Shown here one piece after another: positions 44,457-54,292 of a DNA stretch of 64,000 bases. Each line of letters opens with the position of its first letter. The first letter of the stretch is position 1. Made by a program: the position numbers and the translations under genes. The DNA is from Pseudooceanicola sp. GTDB taxonomy: Bacteria > Pseudomonadota > Alphaproteobacteria > Rhodobacterales > Rhodobacteraceae. The stretch is taken from contig PAPR01000043.1 in NCBI GenBank assembly GCA_002709085.1, positions 1-64,000 of the forward strand. Direction: 5' to 3'. The notes under the pieces were generated by a model. That model searched no databases, had not been told where the DNA came from, and worked only from the letters and a program-made list of their open reading frames with translations.

Positions 44457-45603
44457 CGATTGGGAAGCCGGCGGGTTCGGCATTTACCTCCATTGGCCTT
44501 TTTGCCAAGCCAAATGCCCCTACTGCGACTTCAACTCTCATGTTTCGCGGGAAATAGACCAGAACCGCTGGCTTAGAGCCTATTTAGCCGAAATTGACCG
44601 CTATGCTGCCGAAGTCCCGGACCGGGTCCTGCGCTCAATCTTTTTTGGAGGCGGCACGCCTAGCTTGATGGAGCCGGACGTGGTCAGGGCAATCCTCGAA
44701 CGGATCGCGCGACACTGGCCACAAGCCAACGATTTGGAAGTCACGCTGGAGGCTAATCCCGGATCGGTCGAAGCGGGACGGTTCAGAGCCTTTCGTGATG
44801 CGGGTGTTTCACGTGTATCGATGGGAATACAGGCGCTGAATGATAGGGACCTTCAGCGTTTGGGACGAATCCACACGGTAAACGAAGCGCTCAAAGCCTT
44901 TGACGTTGCGCGTGATTGTTTTGAGCGAGTGAGCTTCGATCTGATCTACGCCCGTCAGGATCAAACCCCCGAAGAATGGCGAACGGAGCTGAAGCAAGCG
45001 CTGAGCTTGGCCATTGATCACATATCTCTCTACCAGCTGACAATCGAGGACGGCACGGCCTTTGGAGATCGATACAGCCTCGGCAAGCTTCGCGGTTTAC
45101 CTGATGATGACGATGCCGCGAAGATGTACGAAATTACACAGGATATTACGGAATCCGCCGGATTCGAGACATACGAGGTCAGCAATCATGCCCGTCCCGG
45201 CGCGGAATCTCGTCATAACACGCTTTACTGGAAATACGGCGATTACATCGGTATTGGTCCCGGCGCGCATGGTCGCGTGACTCTCAACCATCAAAGATAT
45301 GCCACCGAAGCCGTCCGAATGCCCGACGGCTGGCTATTGGCGGCCGAAGGTGGAAATGGAGACAAAATCCGAGACGGATTGATAAAAGACGACCAAGCCA
45401 CCGAATTCTTGCTCATGGGCCTTCGTCTGGTCGAGGGCGTAGACTTGGAACGCTTTCGCGCGCTTGCGGGTCACGATGTATCGCCAAGCACCATAGCCGA
45501 GTTAACAGATTTAGGCATGGCCGAGGTTTCGCAATCCACCTTACGCGTAACGCCACGCGGGCGTATGGTACTGAATGCGGTGATAGAGAGCCTGTTGAGG
45601 TAA
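44449..45603 (+). CDS. hemW: Radical SAM heme chaperone HemW
   Basis: 384 residues. Radical SAM cluster motif CQAKCPYC (Cys19, Cys23, Cys26), GGGTPS and the HNTLYW motif typical of HemW rather than true oxygen-independent HemN. Probably inserts or traffics heme rather than oxidising coproporphyrinogen. The start is a TTG at 44449 inside the rdgB end; no closer ATG gives the family N terminus. A parS-like sequence lies inside the gene at 44815-44830. Confidence 0.92.
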
Positions 45604-45606
45604 TAC

Positions 45607-45966
45607 ATGCGGTACCTATGGGCGAGCGCCGGGGTTTTAAGCCTGTTGTTGGGCGCAATCGGCGTCGTGCTCCCCCTCATTCCAACCGTACCATTCGCGC
45701 TATTGGCCGCCTTTTGTTTTGCCAGATCTTCAGAGCGCATGCATCTATGGCTCTTGCAGCACCGTATTTTCGGACCCGCAATCGCGAATTGGAACGCGCA
45801 TGGGGCGGTTTCCCCATCCTCAAAGCGCGCCGCTACATTCGCCTGCACAATCGTTCTCACAGCATCAATCGTTCTTGGTTTGCGCTGGCAGCTGATACTG
45901 GTTCAAGCCGTCACCCTGGCTTGCGTCCTGCTTTTTCTCTGGACACGCCCTAACGGCCGGCACTGA
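45607..45966 (+). CDS. YbaN-family (DUF454) inner-membrane protein
   Basis: 119 residues with a membrane hairpin (about 5-40, SLLLGAIGVVLPLIPTVPFALLAAFCFARSS) and two further helices near the C terminus. The PTVPFALLA..CFARSS block defines DUF454. Function unknown. Starts 3 bases after hemW and overlaps the convergent parB 3' end by 17 bases. Confidence 0.88.
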   Translation: MRYLWASAGVLSLLLGAIGVVLPLIPTVPFALLAAFCFARSSERMHLWLLQHRIFGPAIANWNAHGAVSPSSKRAATFACTIVLTASIVLGLRWQLILVQAVTLACVLLFLWTRPNGRH

Positions 45967-46843
45967 GAATTCGACACAACTCATCGAGGTCTTCAAGTGT
46001 CTTGTAACGGATCGAGATAATACCACCCTCGGTTCCCGCCTCGTGACTGATCTGCACTGACATCCGTAAAGCCGCGGAAAGATCGCCTTCGATCGCCTTT
46101 GTATCAGCGTCTTTCTCTACGCGGCTTTTTTGGATTTTCGGCGGCTTAGTCCCGGATTTCCCTTCGGTCGCCAACCGTTCCGTCTCGCGAACAGACAGAC
46201 CGCCGGATACGACTTGTGACGCAAGGATCGAGGGATCCTCTGAAGTGATAAGGGCCCTCGCATGCCCGGCGGACAACTTGCCAGCCTTGAGCATGTCCTG
46301 AACATCCATTGGCAAATTGAGAAGGCGCAGCAAGTTAGCAATGTGGCTACGACTTTTGCCAAGGGCGGCGGCCAATTTCTCCTGCGTATGTCCGAAGCGG
46401 TCCATCAACTGGCGGTACCCTGCGGCTTCCTCGACGGGGTTTAGATCCGCGCGCTGGATGTTTTCGATGATCGCGACTTCTAGAACTTCGGTATCGTCGT
46501 AGTCCCTGAGGAGCACAGGCACCTCATGCAGCTTGGCCATCTGAGCGGCGCGCCACCGCCGTTCCCCCGCGACAATTTCATATTGCTCGCCCTTGGCCCG
46601 AACGATCATCGGCTGAATGATGCCCTTTTCAGCAATTGAGCGCGCAAGTTCCTGAAGTTGCTCCTCGGTAAAACTACGGCGAGGCTGATCGGGATTGGGG
46701 ATGACGCTCTCTATCGGTACCAGAAGATCCGGTCGACGATTGTTTTCCGACGCGAGGGCTGTTGCTTCTTGATCGGGCCCAACGTCTGCCATCAAAGCGG
46801 AAAGTCCGCGCCCCAATCCACGATTTTTTGGTCGATTATTCAT
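45950..46843 (-). CDS. parB: Chromosome-partitioning protein ParB
   Basis: 297 residues. N-terminal GLGRGLSALM, ParB/Srx CTPase domain with NPDQPRR and GERRWRAAQMA, helix-turn-helix KLAAALGKSRSHIANLLRLL and a C-terminal dimer domain. It loads at parS, two copies of which lie 1.4 and 3.3 kb upstream. Last gene of the mnmE-mnmG-rsmG-parA-parB run. Confidence 0.97.
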   Translation of the reverse strand: MNNRPKNRGLGRGLSALMADVGPDQEATALASENNRRPDLLVPIESVIPNPDQPRRSFTEEQLQELARSIAEKGIIQPMIVRAKGEQYEIVAGERRWRAAQMAKLHEVPVLLRDYDDTEVLEVAIIENIQRADLNPVEEAAGYRQLMDRFGHTQEKLAAALGKSRSHIANLLRLLNLPMDVQDMLKAGKLSAGHARALITSEDPSILASQVVSGGLSVRETERLATEGKSGTKPPKIQKSRVEKDADTKAIEGDLSAALRMSVQISHEAGTEGGIISIRYKTLEDLDELCRILSAGR

Positions 46844-46850
46844 GCGCTTC

Positions 46851-47660
46851 CTAGGCCTCTGCCGCTTCGTTTTTCTGCAAAAATTCCCGTGCCAAATCCC
46901 GATAGGCCTTGGCGCCCTTGGACCCGGTATCGAAATCCAGCACCGTCATGGCGTAGGACGGTGCCTCGCTCACGCGTACGTTCCTCGGTATTTTGGTTTG
47001 GTACACGATATCGCCGAGATTCTCCCGCGCATCGGCCTCCACTGCTTGTGAGAGATTGTTTCGCGCATCATACATCGTCAGCAAGACGCCCTCCATACGG
47101 AGGTTCTTGTTAGCCGATTGGCGCACTTCGCGAATGGTTAACATGAGCTGTGAGAGCCCTTCGAGAGCGAAAAATTCACTTTGAAGAGGCACCAACACCG
47201 AATGTGCGGCAACCATCGCGTTCACTGTCAAAAGGTTTAGCGACGGGGGACAATCGATGAGGATGTAATCAAATTCGAAGGACGCCATGGCCGGTTGTCG
47301 AAGCGCGTCATGCAGCAAAAAACTTCGTTTCTCGTTGGCAATTAACTCGATATCCGCTGAACTGAGGTCAATTGTGGACGGAACGATACTGAGTCCAGCC
47401 ACGTCAGTATCAATAATAACGTCAGACAATGAAGCGTCATCAAGTATCAATTCATATGTCGTGTGAGCCCTGGCTTCAATTTCAATGCCTAGGCCGGTGG
47501 ATGCGTTACCCTGAGGATCGAGGTCGATTACAAGAACGCGCGCGCCGGATTCTGCGAGTGCCGCGCCTAGATTTATCGTCGTTGTGGTCTTCCCGACTCC
47601 GCCTTTTTGATTGGCTACTGCGACAATTTTCGGTTTTCGAAGCGCCAAAAGATCAGACAT
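46851..47660 (-). CDS. parA: Chromosome-partitioning ATPase ParA
   Basis: 269 residues. Deviant Walker A KGGVGKTTT (19-27), DLDPQGNASTGLG and DYILIDCPPSLNLLT. Drives origin segregation with ParB. Overlaps rsmG by 8 bases and lies 7 bases before parB. Confidence 0.97.
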   Translation of the reverse strand: MSDLLALRKPKIVAVANQKGGVGKTTTTINLGAALAESGARVLVIDLDPQGNASTGLGIEIEARAHTTYELILDDASLSDVIIDTDVAGLSIVPSTIDLSSADIELIANEKRSFLLHDALRQPAMASFEFDYILIDCPPSLNLLTVNAMVAAHSVLVPLQSEFFALEGLSQLMLTIREVRQSANKNLRMEGVLLTMYDARNNLSQAVEADARENLGDIVYQTKIPRNVRVSEAPSYAMTVLDFDTGSKGAKAYRDLAREFLQKNEAAEA

Positions 47661-48264
47661 GTTCGATACTTTCGATCCTCAATATCACACCTTCTGGGTC
47701 GGTCTCGCTCGGGATAACTCGATGGGTGAACTGCCAATTCCTTTTGGCTTCAATCAGTTCTTCTTTCCACGTCCGCCCCTTCATAAAGAGATAGGTCGTT
47801 GCCTCGTTACCATGCCGTGATGCTAAATCCAACAACTTGGGAAGCGGTGCGAGCGCGCGTGCAGAAATGATATCTGCTTGTAATTCTTCCACGGCTTCGA
47901 TCCGACCACACGTCACCTTTGCCGCGACGCCGGTCTTACGCAGAACAGTTCGTAAAAACGCACACTTTCGTTGATCGGATTCAATTAGTGTAACGGAACG
48001 GTTCGGGACCGTCTCTGCCGAAAGTATTGCGATTGCAGCACCAGGAAATCCGCCACCACTGCCAAGGTCCACCCAGTTTGTCTGATCTGTGGCCGAAATA
48101 TTCATCAACTGAGATGAGTCCTTGAAGTGACGGTCCCACGCATCATCGAGAGAGGCCAATGATACCAGATTGATCCGCGGACTCCACTCCTCCAAGAGAC
48201 GTTGGTAAATCTCCAAGCGATTCATTGTTTCACGTGAAACAGAACTCAAGAGATTAGACATCAA
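47653..48264 (-). CDS. rsmG: 16S rRNA (guanine527-N7)-methyltransferase RsmG
   Basis: 203 residues. [18 protein letters not shown] is the SAM site; it methylates G527 of 16S rRNA. The N-terminal residues SVSRETM are encoded by a perfect parS site. Its ATG overlaps the mnmG stop by 4 bases. Confidence 0.96.
48226..48241. other. parS: parS site inside rsmG
   Basis: Perfect 16-base palindrome TGTTTCACGTGAAACA, identical to the consensus parS. It encodes codons for SVSRET near the RsmG N terminus, so it is protein-coding and a ParB-loading site at once. Confidence 0.93.
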
Positions 48265-50141
48265 GCGGTAGCCGGAAGCTTCGCATCGCGACGAATCCGT
48301 GCCATTATGAGCATCAAGGCGGCGGGCGTCATACCTTCAACTCGAGACGCTTGTGCAATATTCGCCGGCCTCCGCCGCTCAAGTTTGACTTTCAGTTCAT
48401 TTGACAAACCGTCAAGCTCAGAGAAAATCAAAGCCGCTGGAATAAGATGAGCTTCATCTCGTTTCGTGACCGCAACATCCTGATTCTGACGCTCAATGTA
48501 TGTGGCGTATAGTGCGTCGCGACCGAGTTGTGCTCGTGTCTCGATGTCAATACACCCAAGGCTGCTGTCCAGCTTCACCAGATCGTCAAAGTCAATATTT
48601 GGAAGTCCGAGCAATTGGTAAGCAGTTCGTCGTGAGCCATCTTGACTCAATCTTTTTCCGGCCTTCGCCACATCCTGAGGAGAAAAGTATTTATCCGACA
48701 TAGCTTTCTGTCCAGATGCCAACCGTTCAGCCTTTTCAGTAAAGTAAGTTTGCCGTCGCCGCCCGACACACCCGATTTCCAATCCCTTCGGAGTCAACCT
48801 TTGATCAGCGTTATCTGCCCTCAGCGACAACCGAAACTCTGCTCGTGAAGTAAACATACGGTAAGGCTCAGTAACACCGCGAGTTGTCAGATCGTCGATC
48901 ATTACACCGATGTAACTTTCGGAACGTCCAAATTCGACCCGAGGCTTGTCCAACGCCGTAGCTGCTGCGTTCAATCCCGCAACAAGACCTTGGGCAGCAG
49001 CTTCTTCATATCCCGTCGTCCCATTAATTTGACCCGCAAGATAGAGCCCCTGCAAACTCCTCACAGCTAACGATAAATTCAATGCTTGTGGATCAACATA
49101 GTCGTATTCAATTGCATACCCAGGCTGAACAATTTCGGCCTGCTCGAGCCCGCGAATGGAACGAATATACAATTCCTGGACATCCAGCGGCAATGAGGTC
49201 GAAATGCCGTTGGGATATACTGTATGGTCATTCAACCCCTCTGGTTCGAGAAATACCTGATGCGAGGTCTTCTCAGCAAACCGCACAACTTTATCTTCTA
49301 TCGAAGGACAATAGCGTGGTCCGACGCCGTCGATGAAACCCCCATACATGGCAGATTTCGCTAGATTTCTTTGAATGATCTCATGCGTTTTTTCGTTAGT
49401 ATGGGTAATCCCACAGGAAATTTGCGCGGATGAGACTGAATTGGACAGAAAGGAGAAGAAGACCGGATCTACATCGCCGGGTTGAGTTTCCAGGATTTCC
49501 CAATTGATCGTCTGCCCATCCAACCTCGGCGGTGTCCCCGTCTTCAATCGCCCGAGCGGTAGAGCGTAATCGTCGATACGCTCGGCAAGTTTAGTGGACG
49601 GCGCGTCGCCCATCCGGCCCCCAGCGTGCGACTGCTCTCCAATATGAATGACACCGCGAAGAAAGGTGCCCGTCGTCAACACCACGGCGCTGCTTCGAAT
49701 TTCTACACCGTCATGCAAGACGATCCCATTAATAACGCCTTTTTCGTCCAGGAGGTCGACGACTTCCCCTTCGATCACAGATAAATTCGGAGTTCTCTCT
49801 ATCTCAGACAGCATAGTGGAGCGGTACACAGCTCGGTCGGCTTGAGTTCGGGGCCCTTGAACCGCCGGCCCTTTACGACGATTAAGCAGACGAAATTGAA
49901 TACCAGCTTTATCTGCCACACGACCCATTACGCCGTCCATTGCGTCAATCTCTCGTACCAGATGACCTTTACCCAAGCCGCCAATGGCGGGATTGCAAGA
50001 CATCACGCCAATTCCAGCCTTCTTAATGGTAATGAGCGCTGTTCTTGCACCCATGCGAGCGGAGGCCGTAGCAGCTTCACACCCGGCATGACCCCCACCT
50101 ATGACCACAACGTCGAAATGAGAATGTTTCACGTGAAACAA
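48261..50141 (-). CDS. mnmG: tRNA uridine 5-carboxymethylaminomethyl modification enzyme MnmG
   Basis: 626 residues. FAD-binding [30 protein letters not shown] and [18 protein letters not shown] are hallmarks. With MnmE it modifies the wobble uridine of tRNA. The first codons MFHVKH are specified by a second perfect parS. Follows mnmE by 3 bases. Confidence 0.97.
50125..50140. other. parS: parS site inside the mnmG start
   Basis: Perfect TGTTTCACGTGAAACA overlapping the mnmG start codon region, coding for MFHVKH. It lies about 1.9 kb from the rsmG site and 3.2 kb from the putative oriC. Confidence 0.93.
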
Positions 50142-52841: not shown

Positions 52842-53288
52842 TCAGAATTTTACCACGACCGATATCACGATCACCACCATCAAGAGTGTCGGTGCCTCGT
52901 TCATGATGCGGTACTGGCGTCCCGTCACCTCATTCTCTCCGCTCGCAAAACCGCGATAGCACCGCGATAGCCATCCATGGAACGCCGTCATCAGCAAGAC
53001 CCCCCCGGCCTTGCTCCAAGGCCAGACCAGGCCCCAGTCGACGATACCGGGGGTCAGGGCGAGGCATAGGCCAAACACCCAGGTCGCGACCATCGCCGGT
53101 CGCATGATCACAGTCAGAAGTTTTTCTTCCATCATCCGGAACGTTTCACGCATCTCTGCGTTATTCGCTTGTTCGACGTGATGAACGAAGAGCCTCGGTA
53201 GATAGAAAATTCCTGCCATCCAGGCAATCACAGCGATGATGTGAAACGCCTTAGTCCAAGGGTACAGGATCGAGAGCAGGTCCGTCAT
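52842..53288 (-). CDS. hemJ: Protoporphyrinogen IX oxidase HemJ
   Basis: 148 residues with about four membrane helices (UPF0093). Conserved histidines and WMAGIFYLPRLFVHH, MRPAMVATWVFG and KAGGVLLMTAFHGW identify HemJ, the oxygen-linked oxidase that replaces HemY/HemG in many alphaproteobacteria. Its ATG borders the putative oriC. Confidence 0.9.
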   Translation of the reverse strand: MTDLLSILYPWTKAFHIIAVIAWMAGIFYLPRLFVHHVEQANNAEMRETFRMMEEKLLTVIMRPAMVATWVFGLCLALTPGIVDWGLVWPWSKAGGVLLMTAFHGWLSRCYRGFASGENEVTGRQYRIMNEAPTLLMVVIVISVVVKF

Positions 53289-53697
53289 ATCTTTCCCTTA
53301 TTCTTAAATATAAAAGAAAAAAAGAATGATGTTTGATGTAGGCATCGCAAAACCTGTGGATTATCAAGCTTGCCACAGTCTTGCCAACATTCTGCCACAT
53401 CTTGTGGATGAACATGTGTAAAGTTTGAAATATTCCTCTGTTCTCAAGTAAATTATCTATTTGAATCAATTAGTTAGAACCACTCTTCCAAAACAAATTA
53501 TTCGGGATAATTTTCGGTGCAAAATCGGTAGAACCAGGTTCATCCCCGGTCCTCAGCTTATCCCAACCAACAGCAGGACAGTGTGAGGCATGGGCTGGGA
53601 GAACGGGGATGACTTCACCCGCCTTGCGTCCTCCCTGTTAATTCTTCAGAAACCTTCCTTAACCCATCCCTAAGATTTTCCCGGGTGTTATCCACAT
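53289..53697. other. oriC: Putative chromosomal replication origin (oriC)
   Basis: The longest AT-rich gap of the window, between leftward hemJ and rightward maf. It contains a perfect DnaA box TTATCCACA (53688-53696), two one-mismatch boxes on the other strand (TGTGGATTA 53355-53363, TGTGGATGA 53403-53411) and three tandem 11-12 base repeats between them (53369-53403). Two AT-rich blocks (53289-53340 and 53411-53512) could unwind. Gene orientation switches here, and the maf-aroE-coaE-dnaQ side matches the Caulobacter origin neighbourhood. Confidence 0.82.
53369..53403. repeat. Three tandem 11-12 base repeats within oriC
   Basis: CTTGCCACAGT (53369-53379), CTTGCCAACATT (53380-53391) and CTGCCACATCTT (53392-53403) lie head to tail, flanked on each side by a near-perfect DnaA box in the same orientation. 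They share a CTTGCCA/CTGCCA core. Confidence 0.6.
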
Positions 53698-54292
53698 GAC
53701 TGAGCTTGTTCTGGCCTCCGGTTCCGCAATTCGCGCGCAGCTTCTCACCAACGCAGGGGTTGCGTTTCGTGTCCGCACCGCGCCGGTGGATGAAGAGACG
53801 ATCAAAGCCTCCCTGCTGGCCGAAGATACACTTCCGCGCGAGATTGCCGATGCTTTGGCTGAGGCCAAGGCGCGCCGGGTCGGGATGAAAGAACCGGCGG
53901 CGTTTACCTTGGGATGCGATCAGGTTCTGGACCTCGACGGGACGCTGCTCTCCAAGGCGGAAACAAGGGAGCAGGCCGCCGAACATCTCCGGCGCCTCTC
54001 GGGCCAGACCCACAAGTTATTTGCAGCAGCTGTCATCTTTCACGAGGCCCGGCCGATCTGGCGATTTATCGGCGAAGCGCGCTTGTCCGCGCGAACACTT
54101 TCATCCGAGGGGATCGAAGCCTACCTCGACCGCAACTGGCCCGAGGTCGGGCAGTCTGTCGGTGCATATCAGATCGAAGCCGAAGGAAGCCGATTGTTCT
54201 CGCGGATCGATGGCGACTATTTCTCGATCCTGGGGCTGCCTTTATTGCCACTTCTGACATTCCTGACTGACCGCGGAGTAATTGCCCATTGA
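53696..54292 (+). CDS. maf: Maf-family nucleotide pyrophosphatase
   Basis: 198 residues. LASGSAIRAQLLTNAGV, the DEETIKASL region and GCDQVLDLDG match Maf/Ham-type nucleotide pyrophosphatases; it probably hydrolyses modified pyrimidine or other non-canonical NTPs. The ATG begins at the last base of the perfect DnaA box and no Shine-Dalgarno sequence precedes it. Confidence 0.92.
   Translation: MTELVLASGSAIRAQLLTNAGVAFRVRTAPVDEETIKASLLAEDTLPREIADALAEAKARRVGMKEPAAFTLGCDQVLDLDGTLLSKAETREQAAEHLRRLSGQTHKLFAAAVIFHEARPIWRFIGEARLSARTLSSEGIEAYLDRNWPEVGQSVGAYQIEAEGSRLFSRIDGDYFSILGLPLLPLLTFLTDRGVIAH

Follow-up and report, generated by a model that had tools for sequence, protein, structure and literature searches.

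The 407-bp intergenic gap that separates hemJ from maf in this Pseudooceanicola-like bacterium of the family Rhodobacteraceae is very probably its chromosomal replication origin, because a conserved clustering of DnaA boxes, the lowest duplex stability of the region, an adjacent parABS system and a published family-wide prediction all agree on it. The window analyzed, that is, the whole stretch of DNA under study, covers bases 1 to 64,000 of contig C43 (113,624 bp), which belongs to a 3.02-Mb draft genome of 78 contigs that is 77% complete. Among at least 80 loci matched by Maf, the nearest named relatives were four Pseudooceanicola species and Primorskyibacter flagellatus, with 72-76% identity, and the window was therefore assigned as Pseudooceanicola-like. 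The features of the predicted origin and of its surroundings are collected in Table 1.

Table 1. Predicted origin and neighboring features, with positions in the 64,000-base window.
Feature	Position	Strand	Basis or remark
parB	45950..46843	-	TIGR00180, 193.6 bits
parA	46851..47660	-	ParA-type ATPase matches, none above an equivalog cut-off
parS TGTTTCACGTGAAACA	48226..48241		exact
parS TGTTTCACGTGAAACA	50125..50140		exact; inside 5' end of mnmG
hemJ, left neighbor of gap	52842..53288	-	TIGR00701, above cut-off
Predicted chromosomal oriC	53289..53696		hemJ-maf gap (53289-53695) plus one base of maf; boxes, melting, conservation
AT-rich block, candidate unwinding element left of 53355 box	53287..53326		least stable 40 bp of 84 kb
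DnaA box TAATCCACA, one mismatch	53355..53363	-	box scan
Three TGCC(A)ACA-type elements	53371..53399	+	starts 53371, 53382, 53393, 11 bp apart, between the two minus-strand boxes
DnaA box TCATCCACA, one mismatch	53403..53411	-	box scan
AT-rich block, second candidate unwinding element	53414..53514		least stable at 60 and 100 bp of 84 kb
Inverted repeat	53540..53612		arms 53540-53551 and 53601-53612
CtrA-like TTAA-N7-CTAA, upstream of maf	53659..53673	+	one mismatch; weak
Perfect DnaA box TTATCCACA	53688..53696	+	overlaps maf by one base, its final A being that of the ATG
maf, right neighbor of gap	53696..54292	+	PF02545, above cut-off

A likely oriC at this place had been proposed by a sequence-only reading, on the grounds that the gap is AT-rich, holds one perfect and two one-mismatch DnaA boxes together with possible unwinding blocks, has genes diverging from it on both sides, and lies within 8 kb of parAB and two parS sites. 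Each of these observations held up: the GC content of the gap is 0.417, compared with about 0.59-0.64 across most of the window, the three boxes and the segregation elements were recovered at their positions, and the strands of the annotated neighbors agree with divergence. The genes parB-parA-rsmG-mnmG-mnmE-rho-hemJ run leftward on the minus strand and maf-aroE-coaE-dnaQ rightward on the plus strand. Between positions 45000 and 54000, from parB to the gap, GC content is 0.51-0.56, lower than in most of the remaining window. Rfam and tRNA scans of the window gave no matches.

The gene order rdgB-hemW / parB-parA-rsmG-mnmG-mnmE-rho-hemJ / maf-aroE-coaE-dnaQ is common, as judged by eye, to most of the Rhodobacteraceae-labelled loci among the at least 80 loci matched by Maf. 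Some variation was seen. A hemJ match is missing between rho and maf in ten loci (L009, L010, L014, L015, L019, L027, L035, L056, L072, and L075), where the nearest left match is rho, about 520-580 bp from the maf match. In an Algimonas draft (L061), parB-parA-rsmG-mnmG-mnmE is found downstream of dnaQ and not on the left side of the gap, and in L017 the hslU-to-secB block adjoining dnaQ is reversed in order and orientation with respect to the other loci compared.

From left to right, the gap consists of an AT-rich block by hemJ, the two minus-strand boxes, a second AT-rich block, a repeat carrying AACGGGGA, and the perfect box at maf. Among 2000 dinucleotide shuffles of the gap, 0.85% had three or more boxes with at most one mismatch, 1.6% had one or more exact boxes, and 0.25% had both. 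Over the whole 64 kb, a single exact box is ordinary, being reached by 37 of 100 shuffles, and near boxes show no excess (15, against a shuffle mean of 17.1); the signal thus resides in the clustering of boxes in the gap, not in their number. The two minus-strand boxes are 48 bp apart and belong to one repeat family. In an alignment of the window with five close relatives (six genomes), GTGGATTA, from the box at 53355, is present in all six, with a second mismatch in the full 9-mer of P. flagellatus and P. atlanticus, and TGTGGATGA, from the box at 53403, in five, being lost in P. nitratireducens; a seventh aligned row came from the P. atlanticus genome already represented and adds no further genome to these counts. 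Elements similar to the TGCC(A)ACA type between these boxes were found in four of the five aligned relatives and are absent in P. atlanticus; phased at 11 bp, they are possibly weak DnaA sites. The word AACGGGGA, in the right arm of the inverted repeat, is shared by five of the six genomes and reads AGCGGGGA in P. batsensis. As single-stranded DNA, the gap folds with z = -1.93, and 4 of 100 shuffles fold at least as well. Promoter and terminator scans gave two matches (0.7 expected) and one match (0.8 expected), respectively.

Control of the origin by CtrA was considered as well. In 46 gaps, 20 one-mismatch sites were counted in 17 of the gaps, with a shuffle mean of 10.9 and a largest shuffle value of 19, and a single exact site against 0.43 expected by shuffle. 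This was judged too weak a signal, and the proposal was rejected.

The gap is also where the duplex is weakest. According to nearest-neighbor energies calculated for the window and the 20 kb downstream (84 kb altogether), a simple stability sum and not a superhelical model, the minima at the 40-, 60-, 100- and 200-bp scales all fall in the gap. The least stable stretch starts at 53287 at 40 and 200 bp and at 53414-53419 at 100 and 60 bp; at the 400-bp scale it starts at 53114 and overlaps the gap.

The clustering of boxes extends to relatives. From the at least 80 Maf loci, 45 were selected in which the nearest upstream match to a query gene ends roughly 90-890 bp before the maf match; a further 35, with greater spacing or truncated contigs, did not enter the box count. 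In the 45 loci, the gaps (20.8 kb in total) contain 38 exact DnaA boxes and the flanks (875.6 kb) contain 4; at up to one mismatch, the counts are 161 in the gaps and 200 in the flanks. An exact box is present in the gap of 28 of the 45 relatives and absent from 17, and 44 have at least one near box, which is the only one in L015, L020, L024, L026, and L056; L046 has none at all. According to a word count, CTGTGGA, GTGGATA, ATCCACA, and TATCCACA rank highest among the 7- and 8-mers that are enriched in the gaps. A second set of 23 genomes from the same genus or family, which overlaps the first in five genomes, was examined over the 460 bp preceding the maf match: an exact box is present in 17, and 21 have two or more boxes with at most one mismatch, the exceptions being L113, with one near box, and L128, with none. 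These 460-bp regions contain 24 exact boxes, against none in 71.6 kb of flank.

A cluster of DnaA boxes might also serve to titrate DnaA, as in a datA-like locus, or to place a gene under DnaA control, as an operator of maf, and not to start replication. The fusion of a box to the maf start codon, described below, makes a regulatory role plausible, and groups of boxes do occur elsewhere; in G021 two exact, oppositely oriented boxes lie 65 bp apart, 130 kb from maf (G021:C1:3343316-3343389, in L170), in DNA of 53% GC. Judged by ORF coordinates, this pair falls within or next to an intergenic gap, and no third near box was found up to 700 bp away. When contiguous 400-kb tracts around maf, each a minor part of its genome, were scanned, the hemJ-maf gap nevertheless ranked first among 450-bp clusters of near boxes in three of four relatives, with five boxes each in G018 (two exact), G021 (one exact), and QY30 (one exact). 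In the fourth, P. batsensis, the three near boxes of the gap are outnumbered by four at 2,404,366, none of them exact, and include the sole exact box of the tract. Together with the stability minimum, the pair of parS sites alongside and the published prediction for the family, this ranking makes a purely titrating or regulatory gap very improbable.

Segregation elements accompany the gap. At up to one mismatch, the two parS sites of Table 1 are the only ones in the draft genome, itself 77% complete, and both are 3-5 kb to the left of the gap. Two exact parS sites, both 3-6 kb from maf, were found in each of nine genomes searched (eight distinct, as G001 equals G008), and G017 and G021 have an additional third site with one mismatch. 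In the window, both sites fall in the first codons of genes, namely mnmG and, provided that the TTG start assigned to it is correct, rsmG. According to a 2021 study, parAB is a good anchor for ori (PMC8116508). A 2019 study used parAB as one guide when assigning oriC by Ori-Finder in 101 Rhodobacteraceae, with eight more unassignable (PMC6699656).

In many bacteria the origin lies at dnaA, and the hemJ-maf gap could then be merely regulatory. In genomes with dnaA and maf on a single contig (among G007-G029), the two are separated by about 47 to 450 kb, such that dnaA drifts relative to maf. No exact DnaA box was found at dnaA in any of 29 loci of 2.0-3.5 kb each (27 distinct genomes, two of them represented twice), over which 21 near boxes are spread, nor in the first 20 kb of the 25.9-kb dnaA contig of the genome studied here, where there are four near boxes.

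GC skew was compared with the gap in four relatives, and the simple change point lies within 1 kb of it in two (G018 and G021) and 54 kb and about 90 kb away in the others; as only two of the four agree, skew is not decisive. In G018, the change point and the cumulative minimum coincide at 2,927,001, and maf is at 2,926,958. G021, of the same genus and assembled as one contig of 4.37 Mb, has its best two-level change point of a contiguous 400 kb at 3,214,001, and the maf match, on the minus strand, ends at 3,213,595; the cumulative minimum of that stretch, at 3,134,001, is 80 kb off and lies a little below the dip at the gap. In sparse samples from elsewhere in G021, skew is for the most part positive to one side and negative to the other, although several samples depart from this. 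In P. batsensis, the nearest relative with a long scaffold, the change point (2,633,001) falls 54 kb past maf, and the cumulative minimum (2,707,001) is 128 kb away. In QY30, where maf is at 50 kb, the corresponding values are 139 kb (89 kb off) and 153 kb (103 kb off). None of 500 block shuffles matched the strength of the change point in G008, G018, or G021; QY30, outside the shuffle test, has the weakest (R2 0.07). The misses in P. batsensis and QY30 may reflect local rearrangement or weak skew. When third-codon skew was corrected for gene strand, the points moved to +16 kb in G018, -10 kb in G021, +67 kb in P. batsensis, and +114 kb in QY30, and therefore even the two simple matches loosen. 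Over the window extended by 20 kb, the best point, 54,001, was equalled by 123 of 500 block shuffles and thus provides no evidence.

The strand-corrected point of P. batsensis is nearly on dnaA, which lies at +68 kb from maf in this species, as an origin at dnaA would predict. In QY30, by contrast, dnaA is 50 kb from maf on the side opposite the skew point, and in G018 and G021 it is 188 and 165 kb away, respectively, from a maf gene at which the simple skew point lies. With the lack of exact boxes at dnaA, these positions leave an origin there extremely improbable.

A position of the origin next to maf agrees with previous predictions. In the 2016 genome paper of Ketogulonicigenium vulgare, the predicted origin directly precedes maf, and the adjacency of oriC and maf is stated to be conserved in Rhodobacteraceae according to DoriC (PMC4793288). 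As described there for K. vulgare Hbe602, the Ori-Finder-predicted origin contains DnaA boxes and ends at the base before maf, much as in the window, which belongs to another genus. The hemJ-maf gap may also be likened to oriC1 of Rhodobacter sphaeroides, by published description and not by sequence; that origin was located with cumulative skew and Ori-Finder, and ParB served to follow it (PMC6315104).

The comparison with Caulobacter is less complete. The right-hand genes maf, aroE, coaE, and dnaQ had been said to match the Caulobacter origin neighborhood. This part stands, with rho and hemJ on one side and maf-aroE-coaE-dnaQ-secB on the other in Caulobacter-labelled loci as well, but the immediate neighbors differ: the genes for ferrochelatase (hemH) and uroporphyrinogen decarboxylase (hemE), together with a PF03618 gene, separate hemJ from maf in the Caulobacter-labelled loci L050 and L078. 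The Cori of Caulobacter crescentus is located beside hemE, and the gap of the window is flanked instead by hemJ and maf. Cori contains the G-box TGATCCACA and exact CtrA sites (PMC4285127); its G-boxes, W-boxes, and CtrA sites are described in two sources (PMC4285127, PMC4468827). In the gap neither this G-box, the boxes there being TAATCCACA, TCATCCACA, and TTATCCACA, nor an exact CtrA site (TTAA-N7-TTAA) was found; a one-mismatch CtrA site starts at 53659.

The last A of the perfect box is also the A of the maf ATG, and this arrangement recurs. At zero or one mismatch, the maf-proximal box is fused in this way to the start codon in 23 of the 45 short-gap relatives (11 of them exact) and in 18 of the 23 near relatives (11 exact), a set that overlaps the 45. 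Starts were counted when the match began within 12 residues of the query start and an in-frame ATG was present; the eight preceding bases plus the A were scored, and the best candidate ATG was taken per gene, for maf and other genes alike. Among other gene starts with ATG in the same 45 loci, none of 524 shows such a fusion at zero or one mismatch, the best five having two mismatches, and none was found among 25 maf starts with ATG in the 35 remaining loci. The fusion of box and maf ATG is thus common in the group and not universal. In the publications retrieved by literature search, as far as their text was available, no start-codon fusion of a DnaA box with maf was found.

A Shine-Dalgarno-like four-base word is missing upstream of 17 of the 23 fused starts, of 33 of the 44 maf starts counted, and of many starts of some other genes, which suggests that the maf start is leaderless or Shine-Dalgarno-poor. 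The box overlaps the start codon and the usual place of a Shine-Dalgarno sequence, and it might therefore be conserved for translation or promoter reasons alone and stand outside the origin, an explanation compatible with an origin in the rest of the gap. The conserved letters of the box fit the DnaA consensus, however, and both the absence of the box from the 524 other starts and the scarcity of Shine-Dalgarno-like words at fused starts speak against this explanation; we consider it unlikely.

If the hemJ-maf gap is the origin, DnaA would bind three boxes, those at 53355 and 53403 and the perfect one at the start of maf, and would perhaps also occupy the weak sites spaced at 11 bp between the first two. 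The resulting DnaA filament would then open one or both of the AT-rich blocks (53287-53326 and 53414-53514), helicase would be loaded, and forks would depart both ways. ParB bound to the two parS sites 3-5 kb away would separate the new origins.

Maf proteins are described as nucleotide pyrophosphatases and have been implicated in cell division arrest (PMC3899018). It can tentatively be imagined that the origin of many Rhodobacterales ends, on its right, in the start codon of maf, and that this arrangement places Maf under the direct control of DnaA; bound DnaA would block the leaderless or Shine-Dalgarno-poor start, and a brake on division would thereby depend on the state of the origin. We regard this as a doubtful, though conceivable, reading of the fusion.

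The likely origin of this draft genome is narrowed to about 400 bp, which in turn indicates the likely direction of replication and gene dosage. A position of the origin at maf had already been predicted for the family; what is added here is a precise, testable anatomy of the gap and the observation that a DnaA box is conservedly fused to the maf start codon. If regulatory, this fusion would connect the initiation of replication to the expression of Maf.
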